Notes: generated by a model not told the origin, from the letters alone. A stretch of 36,901 nt of DNA from Chitinophagales bacterium (GCA_020629205.1 JAHDDV010000013.1:1-36901); one strand, 5' to 3'. Counted from the stretch's first letter, positions 1,863 through 24,103 are shown. Numbers and translations: made by a program.

Positions 1863-3671
1863 ATGGCAAAGTACATGGACATGGACACCCTGCGGTTTTT
1901 ACTTTTTGAATGCCACGAGGTACAAAAGCTGTTAGAAGCCCCCAGGTATGCTGATTTTGATCAGGATGCCCTGAATATTTTGCTAGACTCCTTCAAAGAC
2001 TTTGCCGATAAAGAGCTATACCCTTATTTCCGGGAGATGGATGAGCAGGCGGCATACTATAAAGATGGTAAGGTCATTGTGCATCCGCAGCTGGAGGTGG
2101 TGCTCAAAAAGATGGCCGAACTGGGCCTGATTGGGGCCAACTATGACCACGAAGACGGGGGCATGCAGATTCCTGAATCGATCTTCTACAGTCTTTCGCA
2201 TATCATGGATTCGGCCAACAATAACGTGACTGGTTATCCAAGCCTCACGACGGGTTCCGGCCGTTTGATTGTGACCTTCGGTTCGCAGGAACTCAAAGAT
2301 ACCTATGTGCCCAAGATGATTGCCGGAGAATGGGGCGGAACCATGTGTTTGACAGAACCGCAGGCGGGTAGCTCGCTTTCTGATATCACTTCGAGCGCAA
2401 TTCCAACGGAGGATGGTTATTACAAAATCAGCGGTCAAAAGATTTTTATCTCTGGTGGTGATCATGAATACTGCAGCAATTTTGTTCATTTGTTCCTCGC
2501 AAGGATCGATGGCGCCCCAGCCGGTACCAGAGGGATTTCCCTCTTTGTTGTTCCCAAGTTTCGCCCGACCGCTGATGGTGGTTTGGAAGACAATGATGTA
2601 TTCACGGCAGCTGATTTTCCGAAGCTGGGCCAGAAGGGATATGTAACCACTCACCTGGTCTTTGGTGAAAAGGAGAACTGCCGGGGATGGCTGGTTGGTG
2701 AGCCCAATCGTGGGCTCAAGTACATGTTCCAGATGATGAACGAAGCCAGAATCTCTGTAGGTGTAGGGGCGCTTTCTATTGCCACCGCGGCCTATTATGC
2801 CTCGCTTCAATATGCAAAAGAGCGGCCTCAGGGCAGAAGGCTCAGCGATACAGGGACCAAAAACGTGGAAGCCGATCAAACACTGATTATCAACCATCCG
2901 GATGTTCGTCGAATGTTGCTTTTGCAAAAGGCGGTTATAGAAGGCTCTTTGAGCCTGGCAGTAGAATCTGCGAAATATAGCGATCTGGTCCATGTCACCG
3001 AAGGGGAGGAGCATGATGAGCATCTGCTGATGCTCGAAATCCTCACGCCGATTTGCAAGACTTACCCTTCTGAGATGGGTCGCGTCTCGATTAGCAATGG
3101 TCTCCAGGTGCTGGGCGGATATGGATTCACAAGCGACTTTGTTTTGCAGCAATATTACCGCGACATCCGCATTACGTCGCTTTACGAAGGTACCACGGGT
3201 ATCCAATCTCTAGATCTTCTGGGACGCAAAGTTACCATGAAGAATGGCGCAGCACTTAAGTTGCTGGCGGCTAAAATGCAAGAGTCAATCATGGCAGCAA
3301 TGGCATACAAAGAACTCAAGCCTTATGCGATGGATCTCGGCGAGAAGTTGAAACTAGCGCAGAAAGTGATTGGTCATCTACTGCAGTTTGCGGCACAAGG
3401 AAAGTTCGAGCGATTCACAGCTGATGCCACTGTGTTTATGGATTTCTTTAGCAACATCACTATTGCCTGGCAATGGCTGAAAATGGCTACTTCGGCGAGC
3501 AAAGCACTTAGCGACAACACTGGTACACAAAAGGCGGAGTTTTATCAGGCCAAGATTCATACGATGAAATTCTACTATAAGTATGAACTGCCAAAGACAT
3601 TGAGCGCGGCTTACACTTTGGTTGCTGAAGATGAACTGACGATTCAGAAAGAGGAAGAGATTTTGTTTTAA
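1863..3671 (+). CDS. Acyl-CoA dehydrogenase family protein
   Basis: This 602-residue flavoprotein should oxidise an acyl-CoA to the 2,3-enoyl-CoA, using FAD and passing electrons to electron-transfer flavoprotein. Its length and its extra C-terminal helical domain (from about residue 470) match the long DmdC-like subfamily rather than the usual roughly 380-residue enzymes. Visible motifs are the flavin/substrate loop MCLTEPQAGSS (about 161-171), GQKIFISGGDHE (about 196-207), and LQVLGGYGFTSDF followed by SLYEGTTGIQSLDLLGRK. Glu442 in YEGT sits at the position of the family's catalytic base. The real substrate cannot be told from sequence; related enzymes range from fatty acyl-CoA to 3-methylmercaptopropionyl-CoA. 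It is monocistronic, with a dispersed repeat beginning only eight T residues after the stop. The start is ATG at 1863; no other in-frame start is as close to the conserved N-terminus. Confidence 0.95.
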   Translation: MAKYMDMDTLRFLLFECHEVQKLLEAPRYADFDQDALNILLDSFKDFADKELYPYFREMDEQAAYYKDGKVIVHPQLEVVLKKMAELGLIGANYDHEDGGMQIPESIFYSLSHIMDSANNNVTGYPSLTTGSGRLIVTFGSQELKDTYVPKMIAGEWGGTMCLTEPQAGSSLSDITSSAIPTEDGYYKISGQKIFISGGDHEYCSNFVHLFLARIDGAPAGTRGISLFVVPKFRPTADGGLEDNDVFTAADFPKLGQKGYVTTHLVFGEKENCRGWLVGEPNRGLKYMFQMMNEARISVGVGALSIATAAYYASLQYAKERPQGRRLSDTGTKNVEADQTLIINHPDVRRMLLLQKAVIEGSLSLAVESAKYSDLVHVTEGEEHDEHLLMLEILTPICKTYPSEMGRVSISNGLQVLGGYGFTSDFVLQQYYRDIRITSLYEGTTGIQSLDLLGRKVTMKNGAALKLLAAKMQESIMAAMAYKELKPYAMDLGEKLKLAQKVIGHLLQFAAQGKFERFTADATVFMDFFSNITIAWQWLKMATSASKALSDNTGTQKAEFYQAKIHTMKFYYKYELPKTLSAAYTLVAEDELTIQKEEEILF

Positions 3672-4101: not shown

Positions 4102-6741
4102 TTGAAAGAAAAGAAACAAACGGGGCCAATCTTGAAAATCAACCTTACATATCATTTCGGCAAAGGACTATGCTTTTTGTCGATTCTAATTGTCTTCACC
4201 TGCACTTCCTTTGTCTTGTCCCAGGAAGAGCTCAAGACTGTGGAAACTACCGTTTCCAGCCATTGCGGAATGTGTCAGGATCGAATTCTTCAATCTGCCA
4301 TAGAGGTAGATGGAGTGATGGAAGCGACTTACAATCTCGATACCAAGTTGCTGAGCGTGCAGGTCCTGGCGGATTTTGAGGAGCAGGACCTACACCGTCA
4401 ATTGGCTGATGTAGGGCACGATACGGAGCAATTGACTGCAAATCAGGATGCCTACGATGCACTTCCGGCTTGTTGTAAGTACAGGGATCCCAACTTGAAA
4501 CCCTGCGGCCCAGAGCCTTCCGTCTTAGACGTAGAGGATTTACCAGAGCTCATTTCTCCCGGTCTCTCCGCTTCAGTCAAGGGGACAATCGTCGAAGAAT
4601 CCGCTAAAGGAAAACTGCTTGGCTTGCCCGGTGTAAATGTATATTGGGAAGGAAGTACTGAGGGCACAAGTACGGATGAAAACGGCGTCTTTGTTTTGGA
4701 TCGTGTCGAAGGTAGCGATCAATTGATTGTCAGCTATGTTGGCTTTGACAATGACACGATTTCTATGGAGGAGCAGTCAGAGTTTCAATTGGTACTCTCC
4801 AATGCCGTAGAACTCAACGAAGTGCAAGTGACACATAAAAAGCGAAGCACATCGATATCCTACATTAACCCGCTGAAAGTACAATCACTCAATGAACAAG
4901 AGCTCTGCAAGGCGGCTTGCTGTAATCTATCTGAGAGTTTTGAAACCAACGCCTCCGTCAATGCATCTGTTACTGATGCAGTCACAGGAACGAGGCAAAT
5001 CGAGATGCTGGGACTGGCGGGACCTTATGTGCAATTGACACAAGAGAACATGCCTGGAGTACGTGGATTGGCGGCCTTGTATGGCATGTCTTTTACCCCA
5101 GGTCCTTTCATTGAAAGTATCCAGATCAATCAGGGAACCGGCTCAGTCGTCAATGGCTTTGAAAGCATGGTCGGCCAAATAAATGTTGAATTGAAGAAGC
5201 CGAGTCATAAGGATAAGTTTTACCTCAACCTTTTTGCAAGTCAAGGAGGTAGGATGGAAGCTAATGTGATTTTTGCCGAGCAATTGACAGACAAATGGTC
5301 AAGCAGCTTATTGCTACACGGTCGAGAACAACCATTCAAGCAGGACAACAATGGCGATGGGTTTCTGGACAGTACCCTTGGCGGGGAATATGTGGCGATA
5401 AACAGACATCGATACAAGTTCAAAAAGGGCTGGGAGGGACAGCTAGGTGTGAAGGCCGTCCAAACTGATCAGGTGAGTGGGCAAGAAGAATTTGATCGAG
5501 ACAAACCTTTTGATGGTGATCACCCCTGGGGAGCCATGATAGACAATAGAAGATTGGAAGTATGGTCCAAAGTGGGAAAGCTGTTCGCTGGGGAGAAGAA
5601 GAGTATAGGGTTTCAAGTGTCCGGCTCTATCCATGATCTAGATTCAAATTTTGGTACCAGATCCTATACCGGAACGCAGAAGACATTGTATGGGAATTTT
5701 CTTTTTCAAAAAGTCTTAGACAATCCAGCTCATCAGTTTACAACGGGCCTTAGCCTTCAGGTAGATGACTATGAAGAGCAATTGGTGGATCAGAATTTCG
5801 ATCGAAGAGAAGTGGTTCCGGGAGCCTATGCGGAGTACTCTTTCTCCGATGTAGATCGATTCTCTGCAGTATTGGGAATGCGTTTGGATCATCACAACAA
5901 TTATGGGCTGTTCTATACACCACGGGTGCATCTGCGTTTTGTACTGGGTAAAGAATCCGTGCTAAGATTTGTGGCTGGACGTGGACAAAGAACGGCTAGT
6001 ATCATTTCAGAGAATATTGGTGTACTGGCTTCCTCTCGACAAGTAATTATTCACAGTGAGCGGGACGATACACCTTATGGTTTGGATCCCGAGGTATCCT
6101 GGAATGTTGGTTTGAATCTATCGCAGGAGATTCTGCTAGGGAAGAAGAGTCTGACTCTTTCTGCTGATGCTTATCGCACCTTCTTTGAAAATCAAGTTGT
6201 TGTGGATTATGATCATCATCCTCAGGAGTTGAACTTTTACAATTTGGATGGCAAATCCTATTCAAACAGTGGGCAAATTCAAGTAGACATGGAGTTGATT
6301 CCAAAACTGGATATGCGCCTGGCCTATCGACTCAATGATGTGAAGACAAACTTTGGCGAAGAATTGCGGGAAAAGCCTTTATTGGCCAGGCACCGCGCGT
6401 TTTTCAATCTGGCTTATGAAACAGAAAACGATTGGCAGTTTGATTTTACTACAAGCTGGCAGGGGCAAAAAAGGATTCCGGATCTGGAGGGAAATCCTGA
6501 GGCCTATCAAATGGATTCACGCTCTCCGGATTTCTTTGACCTACATGCACAAATAACCAAGGTTTGGAATGACAAGTTTGATTGGTATCTTGGAGCCGAA
6601 AACTTGCTGAACTACAGGCAGCCATCGCCGATCCTTTCAGCTGACTTACCTTACAGCCCGTATTTTGATGCTTCTATGATTTGGGGGCCAGTATTCGGAA
6701 GGATGTTCTACACGGGAATTCGTTATCGAATCGAAAAGTAA
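4102..6741 (+). CDS. TonB-dependent receptor with N-terminal HMA-like metal-binding domain
   Basis: This 879-residue outer-membrane protein probably imports a metal or metal complex, most likely copper. Order of domains: signal segment (about 14-40, ending FVLSQ), an HMA-like domain (about 47-105) with the metal motif HCGMC at 54-58, a CCKYRDPNLKPC cysteine cluster, a carboxypeptidase-regulatory-like beta domain (about 159-235; VKGTIVEES to VSYVGFDND), a TonB plug (about 245-370) and a beta barrel to the C-terminus. The plug carries LCKAACCNLSESFETN and the conserved QIEMLGLAGPYVQLTQEN. The start is uncertain: no ATG lies upstream of the signal segment. TTG at 4102 has a weak AGGA ahead of it, and TTG at 4132 is the alternative. 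The next gene begins 11 bases after the stop, so this is the first gene of an operon with 6753 and 7475. Copper as substrate is inferred from the HMA motif and the neighbouring FGE; other soft metals remain possible. Confidence 0.92.
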   Translation: MKEKKQTGPILKINLTYHFGKGLCFLSILIVFTCTSFVLSQEELKTVETTVSSHCGMCQDRILQSAIEVDGVMEATYNLDTKLLSVQVLADFEEQDLHRQLADVGHDTEQLTANQDAYDALPACCKYRDPNLKPCGPEPSVLDVEDLPELISPGLSASVKGTIVEESAKGKLLGLPGVNVYWEGSTEGTSTDENGVFVLDRVEGSDQLIVSYVGFDNDTISMEEQSEFQLVLSNAVELNEVQVTHKKRSTSISYINPLKVQSLNEQELCKAACCNLSESFETNASVNASVTDAVTGTRQIEMLGLAGPYVQLTQENMPGVRGLAALYGMSFTPGPFIESIQINQGTGSVVNGFESMVGQINVELKKPSHKDKFYLNLFASQGGRMEANVIFAEQLTDKWSSSLLLHGREQPFKQDNNGDGFLDSTLGGEYVAINRHRYKFKKGWEGQLGVKAVQTDQVSGQEEFDRDKPFDGDHPWGAMIDNRRLEVWSKVGKLFAGEKKSIGFQVSGSIHDLDSNFGTRSYTGTQKTLYGNFLFQKVLDNPAHQFTTGLSLQVDDYEEQLVDQNFDRREVVPGAYAEYSFSDVDRFSAVLGMRLDHHNNYGLFYTPRVHLRFVLGKESVLRFVAGRGQRTASIISENIGVLASSRQVIIHSERDDTPYGLDPEVSWNVGLNLSQEILLGKKSLTLSADAYRTFFENQVVVDYDHHPQELNFYNLDGKSYSNSGQIQVDMELIPKLDMRLAYRLNDVKTNFGEELREKPLLARHRAFFNLAYETENDWQFDFTTSWQGQKRIPDLEGNPEAYQMDSRSPDFFDLHAQITKVWNDKFDWYLGAENLLNYRQPSPILSADLPYSPYFDASMIWGPVFGRMFYTGIRYRIEK

Positions 6742-6752
6742 ATTAAGAAATT

Positions 6753-7478
6753 ATGTCTAGTTATATCAAAGCCCTTATCTTTTTAGTGATATTGGGTCTG
6801 TTTTCCAGTGCAGTCGATGCACAAAGTGTGCACCATGTTAAGAAAGACCTCAGTAATCATGTAAGTGAAGAGGAGGAGGAAGAGAGGCTAATGCAATTAG
6901 TTGATCAGTATGTGAGCAAGATGTCAAGCAATCTGACTGATCTGGACTTACCTGCCCTGACAGGAGAGCAAGAACCCAAGATCAGGGAACTATATAAGAA
7001 CTATAAACAAGCAATCGACCGAATCGACGCGACTGAAGGAATGCGAGGCAAGGAACGAACGGCCTCAAAAGCTCGATTGACAAAGAGCCTTAATAATGAT
7101 GTAATGGAAACCCTTAGCAGCGAGCAGGCTCAGTATTTCGATCGGGATTTTCGAGAAGAATTTGCTGCAAAGAAACGAGCAGAAGCCGCTCCTAAACCAG
7201 CTGCTCCAAAACCACCTACTTCAGGTGAATTAGCCGATTCAGAGCTATTGACGATAGAAGCTGCAGTGGATGGAGCTGGTTTGGCTCCTATGGAAAAGGG
7301 ACAAAAAAATCAACTGCGAAACAGTTTGCTGCAACGACAAATGGAAATGGGAAAGCAGGAGAGTAGCCAACTAACCGAGAGTGTTCTTTATACCATTAAT
7401 GCCAAGCTTCGTGATAGTTTGAAGGCTTTTCTTCCGGCAGAGTACATTACGGTTGTTGAGCAGGCATTGGAGCTGTGA
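6753..7478 (+). CDS. Small secreted helical protein of the metal operon
   Basis: This 241-residue protein has a clear signal peptide (MSSYIKALIFLVILGLFSS, cleavage near VDA/Q), so the mature form starts QSVHHVKK in the periplasm. An acidic run SEEEEEER is followed by two predicted helical blocks (about 45-135 and 165-241), joined by an Ala/Pro/Lys linker (AAPKPAAPKPP). The first block has LTGEQEPKIRELYKNY and LSSEQAQYFDRDF. These recall the LTxxQ motif of Spy/CpxP-type periplasmic proteins, but the resemblance is weak and I do not assign the family. There are no cysteines in the mature chain. The paired histidines near the new N-terminus could bind metal. It sits between the metal receptor and the FGE, 11 bases after the first and overlapping the second by four bases (GTGA), so translational coupling is likely. 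Confidence 0.8.
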   Translation: MSSYIKALIFLVILGLFSSAVDAQSVHHVKKDLSNHVSEEEEEERLMQLVDQYVSKMSSNLTDLDLPALTGEQEPKIRELYKNYKQAIDRIDATEGMRGKERTASKARLTKSLNNDVMETLSSEQAQYFDRDFREEFAAKKRAEAAPKPAAPKPPTSGELADSELLTIEAAVDGAGLAPMEKGQKNQLRNSLLQRQMEMGKQESSQLTESVLYTINAKLRDSLKAFLPAEYITVVEQALEL

Positions 7479-8605
7479 TTGGACGCACACGCACAGCGAT
7501 GTTTTTTCATCTGGGGCTAATCATACTTGTGCTGGGGCTATGTTCCTGTAGCTCAAAGGAGGTCAAGCAAAGCGCCTGTCACGATAGTGAACAGCAAGCA
7601 GGAGCCACTGCTTTTACCAACAAAGCTGCTTCGCAGGTTATTGCCAGTATTGAGGTGAATGAAGACAAGCTGACAGACACTTCAGGTATGGTGTTTATCA
7701 CAGGAGGTATCTTCGAAATGGGAGCTGAAGGTAAGCTGGCAAGGCCAGATGAATTTCCAAAACATCAGGTGCGTGTATCTGACTTTTGGATGGATACACA
7801 TGAAGTTAGCAATGCACAATTTGCTGCCTTTGTAAGAGCGACTGGCTATGTTACCACTGCTGAACAAGACATTTCTGTAGAGGAAATTCGTAAACAGTTG
7901 CCGCCGGGTGCGGCAATGCCACCTGCTGAAATGTTAAAGGCTTCTTCCGCTGTGTTTAGATCTCCCGAAAAGAGAGCGAATGCCAGCTATGATTTTCACG
8001 ATTGGTGGGAGATGCTGCCCGGAGCCAACTGGAGGCATCCAACAGGCCCGGAGAGCGATTTGACAGGGCAGGAGGATCATCCAGTAGTGCATGTGTCCTG
8101 GTTTGATGCAATGGCTTATGCACGATGGGCAGGGAAGCGACTGCCAACAGAAGCCGAATGGGAATATGCTGCAAGAGGCGGGAAGGACAACGCTCGTTAT
8201 CCCTGGGGAAATGAACACATAGCGGATGGGGAAGTGAAAGCCAACTATTGGCAAGGAAATTTTCCACTTAGCAATTTGGGCTCAGATGGTTATGAGCGAC
8301 TAGCACCGGTAAAGCAGTTCAGGGCAAATGCTTATGGGCTATATGATATGGCTGGAAATGTATGGGAATGGACAGCAGATTGGTATAAGGGGAACTACTA
8401 TCAAGAGCTTGGAGGGCAGCTGGTGGAGGACCCCAAAGGGCCTTCAGAAAGATCAGCCAATAGTGGCCAGCGGGTAATGCGAGGAGGTTCTTTCTTGTGC
8501 AATGATAGTTATTGCGCAGGCTATCGTGTTTCAGCCAGAATGAAATCTAGTCCTGATACCTCCCTTGAGCACACAGGCTTTAGATGTGTGCGTTCGAAAA
8601 ACTAA
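7475..8605 (+). CDS. Lipoprotein formylglycine-generating enzyme (copper-type FGE/SUMF1)
   Basis: FGE converts a cysteine in sulfatases to formylglycine using oxygen and Cu(I). This 376-residue protein has an FGE-sulfatase domain from about residue 68 to the end: SGMVFITGGIFEMGAEG, MDTHEVSNAQFAAFV, HPVVHVSWFDAMAYARWAGK, RLPTEAEWEYAARGG, YGLYDMAGNVWEWTADW and TGFRCV. The decisive stretch RGGSFLCNDSYCAGYR holds Cys342 and Cys347 in the CX4C spacing of the two copper-binding active-site cysteines of human FGE (Cys336, Cys341). Many SUMF1-like relatives lack this pair. The N-terminus is a lipoprotein signal with LCSC (probable lipid at Cys25). The GTG start at 7475 overlaps the previous stop and supplies Arg4 and Arg6; ATG at 7499 would leave no basic residues. 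An extracytoplasmic location is unusual, since studied bacterial FGEs are mostly cytoplasmic. No sulfatase lies in the window, so the substrate is unknown. GldK also has this fold, but the gldLMN neighbours are absent. Confidence 0.93.
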   Translation: MIGRTRTAMFFHLGLIILVLGLCSCSSKEVKQSACHDSEQQAGATAFTNKAASQVIASIEVNEDKLTDTSGMVFITGGIFEMGAEGKLARPDEFPKHQVRVSDFWMDTHEVSNAQFAAFVRATGYVTTAEQDISVEEIRKQLPPGAAMPPAEMLKASSAVFRSPEKRANASYDFHDWWEMLPGANWRHPTGPESDLTGQEDHPVVHVSWFDAMAYARWAGKRLPTEAEWEYAARGGKDNARYPWGNEHIADGEVKANYWQGNFPLSNLGSDGYERLAPVKQFRANAYGLYDMAGNVWEWTADWYKGNYYQELGGQLVEDPKGPSERSANSGQRVMRGGSFLCNDSYCAGYRVSARMKSSPDTSLEHTGFRCVRSKN

Positions 8606-8623
8606 CTAGAATGCTTAAAAAAG

Positions 8624-8652
8624 AAAAGCCTCCCTATATAAGGGAGGCTTTT
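8624..8652 (+). terminator. Intrinsic terminator of the metal receptor-FGE operon
   Basis: A perfect 12-bp stem pairs AAAAGCCTCCCT (8624-8635) with AGGGAGGCTTTT (8641-8652) around ATATA. The stem ends in a short U run. It lies 19 bases after the FGE stop codon. The A4/T4 symmetry means it could work weakly in the other direction as well. Confidence 0.92.
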
Positions 8653-9055
8653 CCTCTCTAAATAAACCAAAACTTAAAGCAAAGAAAACCCGATGTCATG
8701 GTTTGCAGACCTAACATCAGACTGTCTACGTATTATACTGGAAAAATCGCTTAGGGATTGGGAATCAATAACTGTCTGATTTTGACGCCGCTAGAAATGA
8801 TTTGGACAAGGCATTTTTTGACAGCATCCTTGTTGGATGGTGGAGAAAAATAACGATGGATAAATCATTTCTAGCAAGTCAAAATGGACAGTTATTGATT
8901 CTCTATCCCTTAATGGTTGCTTGTCAATGGCCTAAATTACACCCCGTGATTCAGACCACAACAGTATTACGTTTGCTATAGTAAGTTAAGTATTTCAAAC
9001 TTCAGAAATACATACCAATTTGACAATAGGTCTTTGTTAAGACAGAATAAACAGC
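8653..9055. other. Gene-free interval between the FGE operon and truC
   Basis: About 400 bases hold no convincing reading frame. The main content is the inverted repeat at 8753-8910. From 8911 the sequence becomes AT-rich and should contain the truC promoter. I could not place a confident -33/-7 pair there. Confidence 0.6.
8753..8910. mobile_element. MITE-like inverted-repeat element (about 158 bp)
   Basis: The arms 8753-8803 and 8862-8910 are imperfect inverted repeats. Shared blocks on either side, as reverse complements, are AGGGAT, GAATCAATAACTGTC, ATTTTGAC and GCTAGAAATGATTT. The 58-base centre contains a smaller hairpin, CATCC-TTGTT-GGATG. TA dinucleotides sit at both outer edges (TTAGGGAT and ATCCCTTA), as expected for a TA target-site duplication of the IS630/mariner kind. 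There is no transposase. A long structured RNA is the alternative. The same 10-base tips recur at 3958-3982. Confidence 0.6.
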
Positions 9056-12540: not shown

Positions 12541-12876
12541 CCTATTGAGGCTGGTTTCGCTTTTTGAATTAATTCATATATTGCGTCAATTGTCGGCAAT
12601 TACGACATGTATCGGCCCATAATACCTAAATATTCCACCATAAGCCAGGTATAATCAAGATGGAAATTCTTGCTTGGATCGCCCCCATCCGAACCAGCAG
12701 AATCCATATTACAAAGATTATCAGTTTGCAACATAGCGTAATTTAGTTCAATGGTACCAACTAAGCTTGGTTTACCAGTTAAATTGCTGTGTTACAAAGT
12801 GGTATAAAATTTGGAAGACAAGATCGGAATGGTCGGTCTTGACTACCCTCAAATGGTTGATAACCAACTCTTTTTG

Positions 12877-12892
12877 TGATAGGCGCCTATCA
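12877..12892. promoter_or_regulatory. Perfect 16-bp palindrome upstream of the first giant gene
   Basis: TGATAGGCGCCTATCA is its own reverse complement. It lies 42 bases before the ATG at 12935. A second dyad, TGGTT-GAT-AACCA, precedes it at 12854-12866. It could be an operator or form a leader hairpin. Confidence 0.5.
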
Positions 12893-12934
12893 AACAGAAA
12901 GGGTTTGAATACCCACAAAATCAAGCACGTGCTT

Positions 12935-15900
12935 ATGAGAATATTGTATTTTCTCCTGTTGCTATCGCTATGTTTCTTTCAATCGCTCGAGTTGAGAGGG
13001 CAAGAACCCTTCGGCACCTATCAATTGGAATGTTTGGCGAATCCCAATTTCAATCTGGTTACTGCCGACTTGTCAGGACAGGAGCCCTCCGAATTTTCGA
13101 TGCTTGATCTTGGTGCCAGCGATGGACTTTATATCGTGCTCGTTTCGCAGGACCTGCATCCAACAAGTATCGCACTTCAGATAGATATGGCCATGCCAGT
13201 CAATCTGGAAATGCATGCTGTAGAACAAAACACCATCTATTGGGTCGGGGAAGTGGCCTCAGGAGCCAGTAATTTTAGCCTACAAGCAGATGGGGCTAAC
13301 ATCGAAGCCCTTTCATTTCCAATAGGTTTCTACGCATTTGGTGAAGAAGACGGAAATTCTGGCAATGCAGCGACCTATTTCTTTGGTGAGTATCTGGATT
13401 ATAACATGGGACCGCCCTTTATCCAGCCTATGCAGGACTGCTTCGAATTTGCACTGCCATTTCCAGCCGGGGGCTCTAGTAGCAGCTACAATCTGCGATT
13501 TGTATTCCGGGAGATGTTTGACGCCTTGCGTCCAGCTGCGATTAGCTTAAGCTATGAAGAAAATGCCATTGATCTATTGGCATTTGGAACGGATGATCCT
13601 ACTGGCATTCTGGTATTCGAACAAAGCCTGAACAATATAACACCTAGTGGTGCGCCTATCATGATCTCTGTATGTTCTAATCAGTTTAACGACAATGGAG
13701 AATTGGGGCCAGCGTTCTTTCTAGAGAGTATTTCCCTAACAGATGATGAGGATTGCTGTTTTGAAGTTCTTGATATACAGACTGTTGAGCCATCTTGCGA
13801 TTCTGCAGACGGTATGATTAATTTTCAATTGTCTCTTGATTCAGGACCTTATACCGTTGATTATGCACCTTTAGGAGAACAGAGTCAGCAGATCATACTG
13901 GAATATGCTATGGGTGGGATTAGTATTGGTGATCTTGCTGCGGGTACTTACAATGTGGCTATTGCTGACAGTGAGGGTTGCGAGATCACGATTTCACCTT
14001 CGGTGATACTTAATGCTCCTGATGCTTGCTGTGACGATTTGAGTTTTACTTATGAGTCATTTAATCCCAGTGAATGTGGTGTCAATGACGGATATATAGA
14101 ATTTTCAGCAAGCGGAAGTACTGGATTGTATGAATATTCTCTTGATGGAGGAGAAATTTGGTTTACATCAGCAGTGTTTAACGACCTCATGCCCGGCGTT
14201 TATGATCTGGCAGTTAGAACACCGGATAACGATTGTGTCTTAGTAGATCCTGTGAGCCTTACTTTGGCAGCCCCGGACGGAATCAGCATAGAGGCCGTGA
14301 ATACAATTGCGGAAACCTGTAATGAATCAGCCGATGGGCAAATTATTATCCTTGCTGTGAGTGAAGAGGCTACTTTACAATACAGCATTGATGGAGGAAA
14401 TACTTATCAGGACTCCAATATATTTGAAGGATTGAATGCAGGAATCTATGAGGTTTTTGTCACCATTGGTACTGCTTGTACCATTGAACACGGCGAAGTG
14501 ATGGTTGATGCCGGAACTGCTTTGGAGTTGATTGAGATTGCTTCTGAGAATATTGTGTGCCTCGGTGATGGCAGTGGTGAGATATCCATTTTTGCCTCTG
14601 CCGGAGAAGGAGTTCCTTTGGAATATTCTATTGATGGTGGTCAAAGCTTCAGTACAGAGAATGTTTTTACAGGCTTGGATCCCGGCACCTATGATATTGT
14701 GGTCCAGACAGCCGAGGGATGCAGTGAGAGTGGTCAGGCCGGGATCGAATTCAATGGAGCAGATGAACTGGAATTTTCGATAGATTTTTCTGAAAACACT
14801 GGCTGCGGGGAAGAAGATGGCTTCATCCAGTTTAGTGCTTCCGGTGGGCTGCCGCCGTATCAGTATTCGATTGATGCTGGTGAAGTATACCAAACACAAC
14901 CACTGTTTGAAAATCTTGGAGGAGGCTTCTATGAACTCTATGTGAAAGACGAAAATAATTGCATTGGCGTATATGAAGCAGGTATATTGAGCTTTGCTTC
15001 TTCAGAATCCCCGACGGTCAGTGATGTATTGTATTCGAATCCTTCTTGCTTTGGAGAATCAGATGGAACGATTACGATTGTGGCAGGCGGCGGGAGCGGT
15101 GTGCTGGAATATTCAGTTGATGGCGGAAGCACCTACAGCTCAGCTAATACTGTCTCCGATCTTAGTTCAGGACTGTATGTGATAATGGTGAGAGATGATC
15201 AAGGATGTGAAGTCACCTATGAAAATGAAATTCTACTGCTCGATCCGGATCAACTGTCAAACATCACGATTGAGATTGACCAATTGGTTGATTGTGAAAG
15301 CGGTTCAGCTAGCATAGAAATTTTTACCGTCGGTGGCACTGGTTTTCTCCAGTATTCGATTGATGGCGGGGAAACATACAGCTTGGACAATGCTTTCCTG
15401 GACTTGTCCGCCGGCATTTATAACGTTAAAGTAAAAGATGAAAACAACTGTGGTCTTGAATACAGTGAAAATCCAGTAGTTATAGAAGAGCCGGGTTCCT
15501 TTCTTGATATTGAGGTCTTGGCTTTAGATCTTAGCTCATGCCTCGAACCAGACGGTCAAATAATCATAACTGCGACAGGCGGGATGGACCCCATTCAATA
15601 TTCTATCGATAATGGGGCAACCTACACTGAGGATAATGTTTTCAGTGGTCTCTCTGGAGGTTCCTATGAAATTCTGGTACAAGATGGTGCAGGTTGCGAG
15701 GCTGCCTATCTATCAACAGTCAATCTCCTGCAGCCGGATGATATCGAAATTGTCAGTGTTGAAACTTCAGACCTTGCTTGTGCAGGAGATGCTTCCGGAG
15801 CAATGACGATTCTTGCATCCGGGGGTGTCGAGCCGCTAGAATACTCCCTGAATGGTGAGGACTGGCAAAGCAGTAATCAGTTCAGCGATCTGGACGCTGG

Positions 15901-18900
15901 ATCTTATACGGTTTGGGTGAGGGACGACCTGGCTTGTGAGGTGTTTTCTAGTGATTTTATCTTGCTTGAAGAGCCGACAGCTGTCCTTGTGGCAAATGTG
16001 AGCACGGTTGACCTTAGTTGCCCTGGAGCAAATGACGGGGCGCTTACAATCTTTGCAGCAGGAGGTTCAGGAGCCCTGACTTACTCCATTGATGCCGGAC
16101 AGAATTTTGGATCTTCAACTGTGTTCACAGACCTGGGGCCAGGGGCATATAGTATCCTTGTACAAGATGAGTCAGAATGTACCATCGATGTGGCCATTCC
16201 AGTGGAGATATTTGAAGCCGCAACTCCCGAAATTAGCGTTTCGATAATAAACACAAGTGATTGTGCAACAGACAATGGATCGATTGAGATATCTGTTGAA
16301 GACGCTGTTGAGCCCTTAAACTACTCAATAGACAATGGACAGAATTTTTCGGTAGATCCGTTCTTTGGAGATCTGGGCGGAGGGATTTATCAACTAATTG
16401 TTAGAGATGGTAATTTCTGTGATTACACTTATGGTGATGTTGAATTATTGCAAGGATCCGATATAGTCTTTTCAAGTATTCCACAAGTCACTCAGCCCGA
16501 TTGTGCAGGCTTGGGAGGAGCCATTGAAATCGTAGTCGCGGGCGGTTCAGAGCCTTACACATACTCAGTAGATGGAGGACAGACTTTTCAAGATACTGGC
16601 TTGTTTGACAATCTGCCTGCAGGTCAATACGAGATTCAGGTCATCGATAGTGCCGATTGTTTGGTTAATTTCGAAGGCCCAATTGTACTGCAAAGTCCAG
16701 AGAGTTTTGAGATCACAAATGTCCTTGCTCAACCAATTTCTTGTGAAGGAGATCCAGGCACTATTCAGATATCCGCGACTGTAGCTGGTCTTAGTTACTC
16801 CATTGATGGAGGCGAAAACTTTCAAACGGAAGGTACTTTTGCAGGTCTGTCAGCAGGCTCCTATTCTATTGTTGTACAAGATGCGGATGCTTGTCAACAA
16901 TCGTACGCTGGCAACCCAGTCTTGCTTGGTAATGAAGAAGGATGTGGAGTGATTTCGGGAATTGTCTTCATTGATGCAGATGGTGATACAGAGTATGACG
17001 CTGGGGAAGCAACAGTTTCCGGTGCCATAATAACGATTAGCAATCAAGATGGGATTGTCTCGATACTAAACACTGAAGCAGATGGTAGCTATGTTTCTGG
17101 AACTGCGGTAGAAGGTAACTATATGGTTTCTATCGATGTGAATTCAGTGCCGGCCAATTTAAGTCTTGTCACACCGAACTTTGTCAACGTAACCGTGGGT
17201 GGAATTAATCCAGCCGTGGCCGACTTTGCATTCAATACAGATCCAATAACAGGAGAAATTGAATTGCAGGATGATATTGCGACAACAGACTACGGCACCA
17301 CCGTAGAAGTAGATGTGCTCGAAAATGATGGCATCGAGGGGCTAGCGATTATTGATTTTGCGGAGACACCAAACGGTGAAATAAGTTTGACAGAGGATGG
17401 GAACATTAGCTTTACACCGAGTGATGGATTTACTGGTGTTGTTAGCATTGAGTATACAGCTCAAGATCCTGATGGAAATGTTGGAACTGCTACATTAACA
17501 ATCACTGTAGGTCCATTGGCTGTTGATGACTATGTCATCACCTTACCGGGAACCCCAGTGACATTTAATCCACTATCCAATGACTTGGGCACAGGTCTTA
17601 CCGTTATTGATTTCACCATTCCAGATGGTGGTGAACTCATTGTTGACGAAGATGGTGAATTTACTTTCATCCCTGCAGATGGCTTCGAAGGCTCTGTAAC
17701 TTTCATTTATACCATACAAGACGAAAACGGAAATACCAGTACCGCGATAGGGACTGTCGAGATCACTTTCGATATTCCCGCTGCACCAATGGCGGTGGAT
17801 GACAGCTATACAACCACAGCAGGAGAGAGCATTACGCTGAATGTCATGGACAATGACAATGGAGTAGCGATTAGCATTGAATCCCTTGTCCCACCTGCAA
17901 ATGCTGTAACCATCATTGAAGGCGATGTCATTGACTTTACTCCTGAAGCTGGTTTTACAGGAACGATTACCTTTACGTATACGATCGTTGACGCTGCAGG
18001 ACAAACTGACAGCGCCATAGTGACCGTGCTCGTCGAAGCAGATCCCACTGCAATTGATGCGGTGGATGACAGTGCAGAGACCGATAGTGAAACCGTGGTC
18101 GAAGTACTGGTGCTGGATAATGATACTGGCGAAGGAATTTATATCTCAAGCTTCACCCAACCTGCATTTGGCGGTGAAGTATTGGTAGGGCAGGAAGGAC
18201 TAATATTTGTTCCCGACCCTAATTTTGTTGGTACCGCAGTATTCCAGTACAGCATCAGTGATGTTCAAGGAAATTTCGATACGGCGCTGGTGACAATAAC
18301 CGTATTTTCCAGTGAAGGGCCAGATGCAATTGATGACCTTTATACCACTGTGATTGATACACCGATTACTGTGGACCTCATGGAAAACGACTCTGGGCTG
18401 GGAATCTTTGTTTCAGACTTAAGCCCAGTGATTCCAGGTGGAGGAGCCATCCTGAATGAGGATGGAACAATCACCTTCGTTCCTGAGCAAGGCTTCACAG
18501 GCTTAGCCGTATTCACTTATACACTAGAGGATCAAAATGGTCTGATGGACATGGCAACAGTTACCGTCAATGTCTTGCTTGAAGCTAATGAGCCTCCCTG
18601 TATCGATACGCTCTACTTCTGTACCGGACCACTTCAAACCGTACCAGTGTGCTTTGAACAATGTGATCCGAATGGAGACCCTAGCTCAATTGTGGACGTA
18701 CAAACCACATTCAACTGTAGCATCTTTGTAACAGAGGATCTTTGTTTTAATTATACCCCACTTCCTGAATACTTTGGATTGGATTCCGTCTCAGTAACGA
18801 TCTGCGATAATCAAAATCCACAAGCATGTTCGGTGTCCACAGTTTTTGTACTGACCCAACAAGCAGGGGTGCCGAGTGCACAACCAGTAGATGACTTTTA

Positions 18901-21900
18901 CAGTACTCCAAACAATCAAAATATTGTCATTGATCCTTTGAGCAATGACGAAGGCGAATTACTTAGCATCGCAGGCCTTACACAACCCTCCGAGGGAGCA
19001 GTGGTGAGCCTTGATGGCGAAGAAGTGACCCTTACTCCAATTCCTGACTATGAAGGAACAATACAATTTGAATATGAAATACAGGATTTCTGTGGCGATA
19101 CGGCTGCTGCTACCATTACGGTAGAAATTACTTCTCCAATCGATGATCCGGTAAACGCTGTAGAAGACGTTTTCAACACACTAGTCGATACACCCCTCAC
19201 ACTTGACGTATTGTCAAATGATACCGGAAATGGGATTACTATCACTGAGGTAACACAACCTGCCTTTGGTGGTACAGTGCAGATCCTAGATGGAGCCCTG
19301 CTCTTTACGCCTGAAGAGGGCTTTACTGGATTGGTGGTTTTTGAATATACCATTACAGATGAAAATGGAGCGACTGATACGGCAGCTGTATCCATTACAG
19401 TCGAAGAACTACCTGATCCAGAATGTGATACCACAGCCTACTTTACAACGCTTTGTACACAGCCTGTAACCCCCGAAGAAATTTGCTTCGATTTCTGTAC
19501 CCTGGAAGGAGATAGCATTGAAGTAGTTGGAGTTACTGCCCTCTATAGCTGCAGTATTGATCTGGAAGATAATCCGCCAGAGTGCTTTGGTTATACTGCA
19601 TTACCTGGCTCCGCTGGCCTGACAAACGAGCTGACCGTAGTAGCCTGCAATGAATTTGGTGTTTGCGATACAGCCTATGTGGAGGTCTATGTCGGTTGCT
19701 TCCCGCCTTTGGCTACGAACGATACAGCAACAGCAGAAGATGAAAGCATCTTTATCGATGTTTTGGCTAACGACAGCGACCCTTGCTACTCGATCGACAC
19801 ATTGAGCACAGTGGCTCTGACGCAACCTTTGAACGGAACTCTGGAACCAGCAGAAGATGGTGGTTTCAACTATCTTCCGAATGAAGGGTTCGTCGGAACC
19901 GATTCTTATACCTATCAAGTCTGCAATCCTTGTATAGACCTCAGCTGCGATACAGCGACGGTCACCATCACTGTACTGGACATTACACCTCCTGCTGATA
20001 TTTTGGCAGTTTTAGACGTCACCAGCACACCATTTGAAACCCCCGTTGAAGTCGATGTGCTTGCCAACGATTCTGGTGAAGATTTAAGCATTGAATCTTT
20101 CACACAGCCAGTCAATGGAAGTGTTAGCCTCGGGGAAGATGGAACCACCTTGGTCTATACTCCAAACGAAGGCTTCTCTGGTGGCGACTTCTTCTTCTAC
20201 ACCATTATTGACGCGGAAGGCAATACTGATACAACAGTAGTCAACATTGAAGTCCTGGAAGAGAACGCCGAAAATCAACCACCCTCAATCATCGGAGATG
20301 TATTTGAGATCGACCCTAACGAAGTGATTGAACTACCGGTTCTTGACAATGACTCTGACCCTGAAGGAGGTGAACTAATCATCACTGGTGTGATAGGTCC
20401 GGAAGATGGTGGCACTATTAGCTTTAACGAAGACAGCACGGCACTTATCTTCACCCCGGATCCTGATTATATCGGAGAAGTGGAGTTTGAATACATCGCC
20501 TGCGACGACGCTGTTCCACCAATCTGCGACACAGCTACAGTAGTCGTATCCGTTGGCACCGAATTGAGCAACAATCCACCACAAGCCAATAATGACGAGG
20601 TGACTATTAGCAATCTCGATGAGTTCTTGGTGATTGGAGTTTGCGGAAATGATCTCGATATTGATGGCAATGCTCTGTCAGTAACTGTCCTCGTGCCACC
20701 AGCCTTTGGCACCGTAGAGCAGGAGCAAGATGATGAATCAGGCTGCAGCCTCATCTATACACCAAACGAATTTATAGATGGTCTGGAGGATATCTTCAGC
20801 TACTTGCTTTGTGATGATGGCAATCCGGAACTGTGCGACACAGCCTTTGTTAGCATAGATTATGTTCTGATTCCTGCTGAGATCAGTGCGGAGCCTGATG
20901 TACAAACCACTAATTTTGAAGAAGCAATCACAATCGACGTATTGGCTAATGATGAAGGTGACAATCTTAGTATTATTTCCTTTACGCAACCAGCCAATGG
21001 TACAGTCACTTTCAATGAAGACAGTACCCAGCTGATTTACACACCAAATGAAGGCTACGAAGGAGACGACTTCTTCTTCTATACCATACAAGATGGAGAA
21101 GGCAATGTGGATTCCACAGTTGTTAATATAACAGTCTTGCCTGATGAGCAGGAAAACCTTCCTCCTGTTGCCAATAATGACACCTTTGAGCAAGAAGAGT
21201 ACGAAATAATGATTCTGGATGTATTGGAAAATGACAGTGACCCTGAAGGTGGTCTACTGACGATCACAACCGTCATTGGACCGGATGAAGGTGGCACAGT
21301 CACCATCAGCGAGGATGGTCAATCCCTTGTCTTTGAACCCGATTCCGGCTTTGTAGGAAATATCAATTTTGATTATGTCGTCTGCGATGAAGAAGGACTC
21401 TGCGATACCGCTTCCGTTGCCATTGCATTGGGCGGAGAAGAAGTTTCAAACAATCCGCCAATTGGGGTAGAAGACAATTTTGATATGCTCGCAACAGAGG
21501 ACTTCATTATCATTGATGTTTGCGGAAATGATAGCGACCCTGATGGCGATAACATCTTCGTATCAATCATTGGAATGCCAATGTTTGGTGAGCTCTCAAT
21601 TGATGAAGCTGACACAACAGGTTGTTCCATGATCTATACCCTGCTGGATTCTGATGCAGAACTGGATGCCTTTACCTACCTGCTCTGCGATGACGGAGAT
21701 CCAGTGCTTTGCGATACCGTAGCAGTAACGATTACAATCTTTCAAGGAAGTGGCGAAGTTGAACTAAACCCAGATGTGGTACAGACTCCATTTGAAACTA
21801 GTGTGAGCATCGATGTCCTGCTAAACGACAACAGCGACTTCCCTTTGACCATCACCAGTTTTACCCTTCCTGAAAATGGAACAGTCGAATTTGATGAGAC

Positions 21901-24103
21901 TGGAACCATGTTGATATACACGCCTAATGATGGCTTTAGCGGTTCTGACTTCTTCTTTTACGAGGCTTGTGATGAAGAAGGAAACTGCGAATCAACTTTG
22001 GTTTCGATCACCGTGCTTCCGGAAGATGCAGTCAATCTACCGCCGACTGCCAATACCGATCTGGCCATCACGGAGGCTGGGCTAGAAGTGATCATCCCGG
22101 TCTTGGATAATGATAGCGATCCCGAAAATCAGCTGCTTACCATCACCTTCGTAGGAGAACCCCTTTATGGTACAATCTCTTACAATGAAGACAGTACCGA
22201 ATTGATCTATCTGCCAAACGACGGAGTGGATATGGTGGAAGACTCGTTTATATATGTGATTTGCGACCCTGGGGAACTCTGCGATACAGCGGTAGTCTGG
22301 GTGGCAATTGGTATGGAGCCAAGCAATAGCTATCCTATTGCCGAGAATGATGAGGTAGTGACGCCTTTCGAGACTCCAATCTTGATCAACATCTGCGATA
22401 ATGATTCAGATCCCGATATCGGTCAGCTTCTTACAGTAACTATTGTGGCAGAGCCAGCTTTTGGTACCATAGAGCTTCTAAACGATACCTGGGAAGAAGG
22501 GGAGTGCTGGGTTGAGTATACACCAAACGAAGGCTACTCCGGGCAGGATGTTTTTGTCTACATCCTCTGCGATGATGGTTCTCCAGCTTTGTGTGACACA
22601 GCCTTTGTGTCGATTACCGTTGAAGAGGAAATCGTTGAACCGGAAACTATTAATGCTCAACCAGACATTGCCATTACATCCATAAATGAACCAATCCTAA
22701 TTGATGTACTTGCAAATGACGAAGGGGAAAATCTCACCATTACAGGTTTCTCTAATCCAGGAAATGGTACCGTCATTTTCACAGTAGATGGACAAGGCTT
22801 GATCTATACACCGGTGCCGGGATTTGTCGGTACAGATTATTTTGAATATTACATTTGTGATGATATTGGGCAATGCGACACCGCCTTGGTCGCCGTCATC
22901 GTACAGCCAGAATCAATCACCAATGTGCCACCATCAGGTATTAGCGACGCCTATTGCTTTGAAGATGATCAACCGAATGTTATTGACGTGCTCGAAAATG
23001 ATGAAGACGCTTTCGGAGGCGATGCCCTGATCCTCGAATCATTTACGCAGGGAGCTTTTGGTACCATCACTCAGGAAGGGCAACAGCTACTCTACACTCC
23101 TGTCCCCGGAAGTACTGAATGTGATCTCTTCGAGTACGTAGTTTGCGATAACGGTGAACCGCAAATGTGTGATACCGTTCAAGTCGAGTACTGTATAGAA
23201 AATTGTGATGATCAAAATGATCCACCTTTTGCAAACAGCGACGAAGCAATGGTACAAAATTGTGATACGGTTCAAATTAATATCCTCAGCAATGATGAAG
23301 ATCCTAATGGGGACAATTTGATTGTAGACTTCGTCACCAATCCTGCCATCGGTTCGATTGAACTCTTGGACGGGGTCGTGACCTATATTCCAGATTCTAC
23401 ATATGTGGGAGTAGATTACCTGATCTATACCCTTTGCGATGATGGTGTGCCTCCCTATTGCGTTAATGGTGCCGTTACCATAATGGTCTCGGCTTGTCCG
23501 GAAGACAGTACCGAAGTGGATACAACAGTCGTTGCAGTGGATGATATGATATCAGCCATCACTGGTGAAGTAATCGCAATCCCAATTCTCAACAATGACA
23601 CGCTAAGCCATGACTATACCTTGATCGAGATTATCACTGATCCTATTGATGGAAACACTGCAACAGTCGTAAATGGTGAAGTGCAGTACGTGGCTGCTCT
23701 AGGATTCGAAGGCGAAGATAGTCTACAATATGTCGTCTGTATTGAAGAATACTGTGACACTGCCTGGGTATACATTACTGTAGGGCCGCAAAATCCTCCA
23801 GAGGTCAATTGCGACTCACTACTGATTGCCAGCGGTATCTCGCCGAATGGCGACGGAATACAAGATGTGCTAGTCATACAAGACCTCTATGAATGCTACC
23901 CAGCTAATGAGTTGCGCATCTACAATAGATGGGGTACAGAAGTGTACAAGGCCATTGGTTACGGGGATGCCTTAGTATGGGACGGTACCTGGCAAGAATC
24001 AGGTGATCCCTTGCCGGATGGCACATACTTCTATGTATTGGTGCTTGACCCTGAAGATAGTAGTCTCGAACCCCGAGACGGATTTATCGAGTTAAGAAGA
24101 TAA
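12935..24103 (+). CDS. Giant T9SS type B surface protein with SprB and Ig/cadherin-like repeats
   Basis: This protein of about 3722 residues is probably a cell-surface adhesin or filament exported by T9SS. Domains in order: signal peptide (MRILYFLLLLSLCFFQS); an unrecognised N-terminal domain (about 25-272); 13 SprB-type repeats (about 272-1335), 12 of them with Y(S)(I/V/L)DGG-like cores; one SdrD-B-like domain (about 1336-1440; SGIVFIDADGDTEYDAGE); 21 Ig/cadherin-like repeats with the VLxND core (about 1445-3618); and a type B sorting domain (about 3624-3722) with ISPNGDGIQD, LRIYNRWGTEVY, WDGTW and PLPDGTYFYVL. Two Cys-rich modules (about 1888-1976 and 2161-2255) interrupt the Ig-like array. 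The start is ATG at 12935, because the signal peptide begins there; a TTG extension to 12767 was set aside. A strong terminator follows the stop. Adhesion or gliding is inferred from the SprB family. Type B proteins often have an SprF/PorP-like partner next door, and none is seen here. Confidence 0.93.
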   Translation: MRILYFLLLLSLCFFQSLELRGQEPFGTYQLECLANPNFNLVTADLSGQEPSEFSMLDLGASDGLYIVLVSQDLHPTSIALQIDMAMPVNLEMHAVEQNTIYWVGEVASGASNFSLQADGANIEALSFPIGFYAFGEEDGNSGNAATYFFGEYLDYNMGPPFIQPMQDCFEFALPFPAGGSSSSYNLRFVFREMFDALRPAAISLSYEENAIDLLAFGTDDPTGILVFEQSLNNITPSGAPIMISVCSNQFNDNGELGPAFFLESISLTDDEDCCFEVLDIQTVEPSCDSADGMINFQLSLDSGPYTVDYAPLGEQSQQIILEYAMGGISIGDLAAGTYNVAIADSEGCEITISPSVILNAPDACCDDLSFTYESFNPSECGVNDGYIEFSASGSTGLYEYSLDGGEIWFTSAVFNDLMPGVYDLAVRTPDNDCVLVDPVSLTLAAPDGISIEAVNTIAETCNESADGQIIILAVSEEATLQYSIDGGNTYQDSNIFEGLNAGIYEVFVTIGTACTIEHGEVMVDAGTALELIEIASENIVCLGDGSGEISIFASAGEGVPLEYSIDGGQSFSTENVFTGLDPGTYDIVVQTAEGCSESGQAGIEFNGADELEFSIDFSENTGCGEEDGFIQFSASGGLPPYQYSIDAGEVYQTQPLFENLGGGFYELYVKDENNCIGVYEAGILSFASSESPTVSDVLYSNPSCFGESDGTITIVAGGGSGVLEYSVDGGSTYSSANTVSDLSSGLYVIMVRDDQGCEVTYENEILLLDPDQLSNITIEIDQLVDCESGSASIEIFTVGGTGFLQYSIDGGETYSLDNAFLDLSAGIYNVKVKDENNCGLEYSENPVVIEEPGSFLDIEVLALDLSSCLEPDGQIIITATGGMDPIQYSIDNGATYTEDNVFSGLSGGSYEILVQDGAGCEAAYLSTVNLLQPDDIEIVSVETSDLACAGDASGAMTILASGGVEPLEYSLNGEDWQSSNQFSDLDAGSYTVWVRDDLACEVFSSDFILLEEPTAVLVANVSTVDLSCPGANDGALTIFAAGGSGALTYSIDAGQNFGSSTVFTDLGPGAYSILVQDESECTIDVAIPVEIFEAATPEISVSIINTSDCATDNGSIEISVEDAVEPLNYSIDNGQNFSVDPFFGDLGGGIYQLIVRDGNFCDYTYGDVELLQGSDIVFSSIPQVTQPDCAGLGGAIEIVVAGGSEPYTYSVDGGQTFQDTGLFDNLPAGQYEIQVIDSADCLVNFEGPIVLQSPESFEITNVLAQPISCEGDPGTIQISATVAGLSYSIDGGENFQTEGTFAGLSAGSYSIVVQDADACQQSYAGNPVLLGNEEGCGVISGIVFIDADGDTEYDAGEATVSGAIITISNQDGIVSILNTEADGSYVSGTAVEGNYMVSIDVNSVPANLSLVTPNFVNVTVGGINPAVADFAFNTDPITGEIELQDDIATTDYGTTVEVDVLENDGIEGLAIIDFAETPNGEISLTEDGNISFTPSDGFTGVVSIEYTAQDPDGNVGTATLTITVGPLAVDDYVITLPGTPVTFNPLSNDLGTGLTVIDFTIPDGGELIVDEDGEFTFIPADGFEGSVTFIYTIQDENGNTSTAIGTVEITFDIPAAPMAVDDSYTTTAGESITLNVMDNDNGVAISIESLVPPANAVTIIEGDVIDFTPEAGFTGTITFTYTIVDAAGQTDSAIVTVLVEADPTAIDAVDDSAETDSETVVEVLVLDNDTGEGIYISSFTQPAFGGEVLVGQEGLIFVPDPNFVGTAVFQYSISDVQGNFDTALVTITVFSSEGPDAIDDLYTTVIDTPITVDLMENDSGLGIFVSDLSPVIPGGGAILNEDGTITFVPEQGFTGLAVFTYTLEDQNGLMDMATVTVNVLLEANEPPCIDTLYFCTGPLQTVPVCFEQCDPNGDPSSIVDVQTTFNCSIFVTEDLCFNYTPLPEYFGLDSVSVTICDNQNPQACSVSTVFVLTQQAGVPSAQPVDDFYSTPNNQNIVIDPLSNDEGELLSIAGLTQPSEGAVVSLDGEEVTLTPIPDYEGTIQFEYEIQDFCGDTAAATITVEITSPIDDPVNAVEDVFNTLVDTPLTLDVLSNDTGNGITITEVTQPAFGGTVQILDGALLFTPEEGFTGLVVFEYTITDENGATDTAAVSITVEELPDPECDTTAYFTTLCTQPVTPEEICFDFCTLEGDSIEVVGVTALYSCSIDLEDNPPECFGYTALPGSAGLTNELTVVACNEFGVCDTAYVEVYVGCFPPLATNDTATAEDESIFIDVLANDSDPCYSIDTLSTVALTQPLNGTLEPAEDGGFNYLPNEGFVGTDSYTYQVCNPCIDLSCDTATVTITVLDITPPADILAVLDVTSTPFETPVEVDVLANDSGEDLSIESFTQPVNGSVSLGEDGTTLVYTPNEGFSGGDFFFYTIIDAEGNTDTTVVNIEVLEENAENQPPSIIGDVFEIDPNEVIELPVLDNDSDPEGGELIITGVIGPEDGGTISFNEDSTALIFTPDPDYIGEVEFEYIACDDAVPPICDTATVVVSVGTELSNNPPQANNDEVTISNLDEFLVIGVCGNDLDIDGNALSVTVLVPPAFGTVEQEQDDESGCSLIYTPNEFIDGLEDIFSYLLCDDGNPELCDTAFVSIDYVLIPAEISAEPDVQTTNFEEAITIDVLANDEGDNLSIISFTQPANGTVTFNEDSTQLIYTPNEGYEGDDFFFYTIQDGEGNVDSTVVNITVLPDEQENLPPVANNDTFEQEEYEIMILDVLENDSDPEGGLLTITTVIGPDEGGTVTISEDGQSLVFEPDSGFVGNINFDYVVCDEEGLCDTASVAIALGGEEVSNNPPIGVEDNFDMLATEDFIIIDVCGNDSDPDGDNIFVSIIGMPMFGELSIDEADTTGCSMIYTLLDSDAELDAFTYLLCDDGDPVLCDTVAVTITIFQGSGEVELNPDVVQTPFETSVSIDVLLNDNSDFPLTITSFTLPENGTVEFDETGTMLIYTPNDGFSGSDFFFYEACDEEGNCESTLVSITVLPEDAVNLPPTANTDLAITEAGLEVIIPVLDNDSDPENQLLTITFVGEPLYGTISYNEDSTELIYLPNDGVDMVEDSFIYVICDPGELCDTAVVWVAIGMEPSNSYPIAENDEVVTPFETPILINICDNDSDPDIGQLLTVTIVAEPAFGTIELLNDTWEEGECWVEYTPNEGYSGQDVFVYILCDDGSPALCDTAFVSITVEEEIVEPETINAQPDIAITSINEPILIDVLANDEGENLTITGFSNPGNGTVIFTVDGQGLIYTPVPGFVGTDYFEYYICDDIGQCDTALVAVIVQPESITNVPPSGISDAYCFEDDQPNVIDVLENDEDAFGGDALILESFTQGAFGTITQEGQQLLYTPVPGSTECDLFEYVVCDNGEPQMCDTVQVEYCIENCDDQNDPPFANSDEAMVQNCDTVQINILSNDEDPNGDNLIVDFVTNPAIGSIELLDGVVTYIPDSTYVGVDYLIYTLCDDGVPPYCVNGAVTIMVSACPEDSTEVDTTVVAVDDMISAITGEVIAIPILNNDTLSHDYTLIEIITDPIDGNTATVVNGEVQYVAALGFEGEDSLQYVVCIEEYCDTAWVYITVGPQNPPEVNCDSLLIASGISPNGDGIQDVLVIQDLYECYPANELRIYNRWGTEVYKAIGYGDALVWDGTWQESGDPLPDGTYFYVLVLDPEDSSLEPRDGFIELRR
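13750..16940 (+). repeat. SprB repeat array, first giant gene
   Basis: It encodes 13 units of about 80 residues. Each has a C..G.(D/N)G.I.I.A.GG start, a YSIDGG.(T/S)(Y/F) core, a (F)..L..G.Y.(V/I).V.D...C close and a linking strand. The first unit (near 13800-13930) is degenerate, and the last lacks the early GG turn. Recurring DNA words such as TATTCTATTGATGGTGG occur, but synonymous drift between units is high. Confidence 0.85.
17271..23790 (+). repeat. Ig/cadherin-like 'VLxND' repeat array, first giant gene
   Basis: It encodes 21 tandem units of roughly 80-95 residues in the style of bacterial Ig-like (Big_9/cadherin-like) domains. The unit is DD..T...TP..IDVL.ND...(G/L)..I...TQP..GTV.....(L).YTP..GF.G.D.F.Y...D..G..DTA.V.ITV. 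From about 20300 onward the form with ND.DP.G dominates, suggesting Ca-binding loops and a later round of expansion. Two Cys-rich modules sit within it. Confidence 0.85.

Follow-up and report, generated by a model that had tools for sequence, protein, structure and literature searches.

A predicted lipoprotein formylglycine-generating enzyme of copper type, encoded behind a TonB-dependent receptor with an HMA-like domain in a Chitinophagales bacterium

We found that the last gene of a three-gene locus in a Chitinophagales bacterium encodes, by sequence and predicted fold, a copper-type formylglycine-generating enzyme (FGE), which is very probably exported out of the cytoplasm. The locus lies at positions 4102-8605 of a window of 36,901 nucleotides (GCA_020629205.1 JAHDDV010000013.1:1-36901, contig C296), the whole stretch of DNA that we analysed, from an assembly of 5.8 Mb in 579 contigs that is 90.8% complete. 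It starts with a TonB-dependent outer-membrane receptor bearing an HMA-like domain, continues with a protein without known family and ends with the FGE, which we assign to a known enzyme family as an exported variant. We consider it probable that gene 3 is a copper-dependent FGE which is exported by Sec, anchored by a lipid and matures exported Cys-type sulfatases outside the cytoplasm. The exported copper-type FGE is the strongest part of this account, and a copper path leading from the receptor to the FGE, put forward in a first-pass annotation of the same sequence, is its weakest.

Gene 3 (7475..8605, plus strand, GTG start) matches PF03781 (FGE-sulfatase) at 7.5e-86 over profile positions 3-255 of 255, that is, over its full length. 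By sequence, its closest solved relatives are FGEs of bacteria and of human, several of them copper-bound, including the copper FGE 6s07 as well as 5nxl, 2q17 and 6muj. The structure model, based on 46 aligned sequences, has a predicted local distance difference test (pLDDT) score of 88.6, and its top fold matches are 2q17, 6xtp, 6muj and 6s07 (E ~1e-35, 46-47% identity), with an E-value of 5.3e-36 and a template modelling score of 0.89 by target for 2q17. The two copper cysteines named in the first-pass annotation are kept and were numbered correctly: Cys342 (8498..8500), the first ligand, and Cys347 (8513..8515), the second, align with those of 6s07 and 2q17 and are invariant in 91/91 aligned FGE sequences, as are the flanking Tyr346 and Arg351. 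In this set, the FGEs of loci L016 and L026 are the same as those of genomes G007 and G008, and each was counted once. None of the other FGE-domain proteins of this genome has both cysteines, and PorK/GldK, EgtB, PvdO and others of the FGE fold score far below FGEs against gene 3.

The solved aerobic FGEs, 2q17 of Streptomyces coelicolor and 5nxl and 5nyy of Thermomonospora curvata, together with the copper-bound 6muj and 6s07, have the same fold as gene 3, a core identity of 46-48% and, arranged as LC-xxxx-C, both copper cysteines. Gene 3 differs from them by having a conserved Cys in its linker and an insert after about residue 131. The 80 FGE relatives listed are all titled Bacteroidota, the nearest including Saprospiraceae. 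FGE chemistry needs oxygen. FGEs with both copper cysteines were also seen at loci L018 and L029, in lineages named as, or thought to be related to, anaerobes (Draconibacterium, Mariniphaga anaerophila).

Gene 3 had been predicted to be a lipoprotein, and its N terminus, MIGRTRTAMFFHLGLIILVLGLCSC, indeed reads as a lipoprotein signal with a lipobox, LCSC, ending at the putative lipid-anchor residue Cys25 (7547..7549), a column occupied by Cys in 78 of the 91 sequences. A lipobox was assigned by rule in 75/91 FGEs, and nearly all the remaining ones have a type I-like signal peptide; one sequence (L081) is cut short by the end of its contig. The median hydrophobicity is 2.42 at the FGE N termini and 1.33 where the catalytic core begins, a difference that is supportive and not decisive because the ranges overlap. 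Judged by these signals, the exported copper-type FGE is widespread across Bacteroidota and not particular to this three-gene operon.

A biochemical study has described prokaryotic FGE as cytosolic, in contrast to the eukaryotic enzyme of the endoplasmic reticulum (ER) (PMC4505483). Since this statement places prokaryotic FGE in the cytosol, a bacterial FGE with a lipoprotein export signal, as predicted for gene 3, would be a departure from the known picture. Our literature search, in which coverage of subscription papers was thin and which leaves absence unproven, returned nothing on exported FGE lipoproteins.

The first-pass annotation pointed to CxPxR sulfatases with signal peptides as possible partners of the enzyme. 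We found four in this genome, with CTPSR or CTPTR and all with hydrophobic export signals, and others beside FGEs in relatives; one of the four is a likely lipoprotein and two adjoin each other on contig C506. Across 81 FGE loci, whose genes were called as simple longest open reading frames, sulfatases fill 33/314 positions within two genes of the FGE and 9/752 positions at three to eight genes (odds ratio 9.7, p = 2.5e-11). In these loci, 19 sulfatases directly adjoin the FGE on the same strand, with gaps of -1 to 116 bases. The locus sulfatases form a cluster of 42 members, in 37 of which the motif is readable in the expected region, all 37 being Cys-type with hydrophobic N-termini; in the other five the motif was not seen in that region. 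At the level of genomes, many of which are incomplete assemblies, S1 sulfatases occur in 13/13 FGE-positive and 21/48 FGE-negative relatives (p = 2.3e-4), with FGE presence called at a threshold of about 170 bits that was set after the scores had been seen. The weakest FGE positives, G027 and G058, were inspected and both have the Cys pair. Taken together, these data point to exported Cys-type sulfatases as the likely targets of the gene 3 FGE.

We therefore agree with the first-pass annotation that the arrangement resembles the one in the eukaryotic ER, because a copper-type FGE is predicted to be exported as a lipoprotein and exported Cys-type sulfatases of the same genome are its likely targets. 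Human FGE (SUMF1), which is resident in the ER, has in common with gene 3 the catalytic core, the copper cysteines and an N-terminal extension with cysteines, and it acts on proteins that are already outside the cytosol, as we propose for gene 3. The two enzymes differ in how they would be held in place, by a lipid anchor in gene 3 and by ER retention in human FGE, and the gene 3 linker carries a Cys beside a Cys/His/Met position rather than the human sequence.

According to our model, the FGE would leave the cytoplasm through Sec, become lipid-anchored and act either periplasmically or on the outer membrane. At that site, it would convert the Cys of the CxPxR motif to formylglycine while the exported sulfatases, coming out of Sec, are still unfolded. 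We infer that the enzyme is active, that it is loaded with copper outside the cytoplasm and that it acts before folding. If this holds, polysaccharide-degrading Bacteroidota would activate their sulfatases outside the cytoplasm, which would raise the questions of how substrates are kept unfolded, from where Cu(I) and reducing thiols are obtained in an extracytoplasmic compartment, and whether the linker Cys-(Cys/His/Met) takes part in metal loading. Such enzymes would also be natural export-compatible FGEs for protein labelling.

Several points weigh against this model. The export call is rule-based, made from sequence motifs, and the p-values for proximity and co-occurrence ignore shared ancestry. 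The four sulfatases of this genome are not adjacent to the FGE gene. We found no match to an anaerobic sulfatase-maturating enzyme (anSME) in this genome at E <= 0.001, an absence that is not certain because the genome is 90.8% complete. Finally, some FGE-negative relatives also hold exported CxPxR sulfatases, so that either sulfatases can be matured by a route other than FGE or the assemblies of these relatives are incomplete. The Cys-type motif, considered as an exclusive correlate of FGE, fails on these same relatives. As a separate observation, genomes G005, G010, G014, G015, G016, G018, G038 and G046 (loci L185-L202) combine exported CxPxR sulfatases with the lack of a good anSME match and of any detected FGE bearing the Cys pair.

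In the linker that joins the lipid anchor to the catalytic core, a second cysteine is aligned in 80/91 FGEs. In gene 3 this is Cys35, followed by His36 (7577..7582), and the neighbouring position is typically occupied by a Cu(I)-type ligand (Cys, His or Met). Directly behind the first linker Cys, 66/81 sequences carry one of these three residues, whereas His and Met each make up about 2% of the remaining linker positions. After correction by hand of three rows (L052, L065, L086), 68 sequences have Cys/His/Met after the Cys, 6 more have a Met before it, 7 have another residue and 10 have no linker Cys. In a quick phylogeny built from the catalytic core, Cys, His and Met exchange at least 8 times beside the linker Cys. 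Because this exchange is among Cu(I) ligands, it favours a metal site over a disulfide, and a putative Cu(I) site is plausible. The motif was noticed post hoc while the N-termini were being inspected and had not been predicted in advance, and the AlphaFold structure of linker residues 31-45 is of low confidence. Besides, a C..PxR-like linker tail, found in 62/81 sequences, could mimic the sulfatase substrate; the linker of gene 3 itself has the Cys-His and no PxR. In human FGE, the N-terminal extension has functional Cys50 and Cys52 and works with ERp44 (PMC4505483).

The first-pass annotation further proposed that the receptor imports copper and passes it on to the exported FGE, possibly with the middle protein as an intermediary. 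The receptor gene (4102..6741, plus strand, TTG start) encodes a protein 65% identical to its same-genus ortholog, with Pfam matches to the TonB barrel (2.2e-17), to CarbopepD_reg_2 (1.9e-13) and to the plug (0.0022, under its own cut-off). The annotated HCGMC is present in its N-terminal domain (4219..4485), as a CxxC formed by Cys55 and Cys58, and a C-terminal CC (Cys124/125) is conserved in the family, as seen when fused and stand-alone HMA proteins from relatives were aligned with it by hidden Markov model. This domain scores 19.4 bits (E = 0.0014) against a Pfam cut-off of 24.8, for which reason "HMA-like" is the apt label; stand-alone homologs in relatives, with the CxxC in common, pass the cut-off at 26 bits. 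A further pair, Cys273-Cys274, located where the plug begins (4918..4923, KAACCNLSESFE), is invariant in 30/30 members of the receptor family (homologs L097-L125).

In many relatives, a separate small gene beside a receptor of the same family as gene 1 encodes an HMA of this family, likewise with the CxxC and the CC at the C terminus. Gene 1 differs from these pairs in being a single fused protein, as in this genus and in two other relatives (G007 and G041), and in being followed here by the FGE. Ahead of the HMA and receptor pair there is often a small exported Cys-rich protein of about 115-160 residues, one of which weakly resembles DUF6660/DUF2946 (loci L159-L165). HMA and receptor are a metal-type cassette, and copper as the ligand is a guess. 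Like the copper receptor OprC, gene 1 is TonB-dependent with metal-type residues; the metal motif of OprC is CxxxM and HxM (PMC11213822), neither of which occurs in our receptor, whose distinguishing features are instead the fused HMA-like domain and the invariant plug CC. We found nothing specific in the literature on HMA-bearing TonB receptors of Bacteroidota.

A copper supply dedicated to the FGE would be consistent with these metal-type cysteines, with the copper requirement of FGE (PMC4505483) and with the layout of the locus. The three open reading frames lie on the plus strand as annotated (4102-6741, 6753-7478 and 7475-8605), genes 1 and 2 are 11 bases apart, and genes 2 and 3 share the 4-base GTGA. 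A single hairpin 3' of the FGE gene (8623..8653, plus strand) folds at -22.9 kcal/mol (z = -5.0), which supports the shared terminator of the first-pass annotation, while it was absent from the output of a simple terminator scan; that it acts as a terminator is likely, though not proven. No Bacteroidota-type promoter pattern was found within the window.

Conservation of the gene order, which the first-pass annotation had proposed to check, held in part. The order is kept in one same-genus species (G001:C3), even though the receptors are just 65%, the middle proteins 37% and the FGEs 63% identical, and it is absent from the other 59 of the 61 genomes searched; a search of 80 FGE loci added no further case. 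In G001:C3 the flanks are kept as well, with a 496-residue gene upstream and RluA-like, SerS and giant surface-protein genes downstream (the RluA-like and SerS names were assigned by eye), so the trio sits within a longer syntenic block that is interrupted in the window by one extra acyl-CoA dehydrogenase gene. Because the flanking genes are conserved too, the order may be background synteny and does not by itself show selection for a receptor-FGE pairing. Moreover, no HMA of the receptor's family occurs in 80 other FGE loci with flanks of up to 10 kb, and this FGE is frequently missing from relatives with strong receptor matches (G028, G030 and G052 are examples), HMA/receptor pairs being present in many genomes without it.

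The middle protein does not help the proposed supply either. This 241-residue protein (6753..7478, plus strand), predicted to be exported and all-helical, has no Cys and no conserved His, and a two-sequence alignment with its sister-species homolog, the only one found (2/61 genomes, both of this genus), retains one conserved internal Met. The suggestion that it could be a metal carrier is not borne out. No fold match to solved structures was obtained at E <= 0.001, and a likeness to CpxP/Spy, based on LTxEQ-like motifs, found no support from Pfam or Foldseek.

Based on these findings, we regard a dedicated copper supply from receptor to FGE as unlikely. A broader scenario, in which many Bacteroidota mature sulfatases after export by an outer-membrane or periplasmic copper FGE with a Cu(I) relay in its linker and in which the FGE is here co-transcribed with a copper-importing receptor, seems to us rather improbable as a whole. 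The HMA-receptor is more probably an independent metal-receptor unit, a fusion of the common HMA and receptor pair, that in this genus came into one transcription unit with the FGE; this arrangement may be incidental, or the genes may have metal regulation in common.

Two other roles for gene 3 were weighed against that of a sulfatase-maturing FGE. It is very unlikely that gene 3, as an FGE-fold lipoprotein, assists a copper nitrite reductase or another copper enzyme rather than sulfatases: NirV, of the same domain family, is in an operon with NirK in Rhodobacter (PMC1262709), but the relatives of gene 3 adjoin sulfatases and match true FGE best, and the only PF07732 match of this 90.8% complete genome lies on another contig and looks, by eye, like a CueO-type multicopper oxidase lipoprotein. 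A structural, non-catalytic role like that of PorK/GldK in the ring of the type IX secretion system, which are likewise exported FGE-fold lipoproteins of Bacteroidota and whose GldK model matches gene 3 at 1.2e-41, is extremely improbable, given a GldK score of 143 bits against a curated cut-off of 350, far better matches to true FGEs, two invariant copper cysteines and the presence in the genome of separate FGE-fold lipoproteins without the Cys pair.

Elsewhere in the window, the acyl-CoA dehydrogenase gene upstream of the receptor (1863-3671) is missing at this place in the sister species, whose flanks are otherwise in the same order. Downstream, an open reading frame of 3778 residues (12767-24103) contains many repeats, and its C-terminal end resembles a sorting domain of gliding and type IX secretion, as in large surface adhesins.

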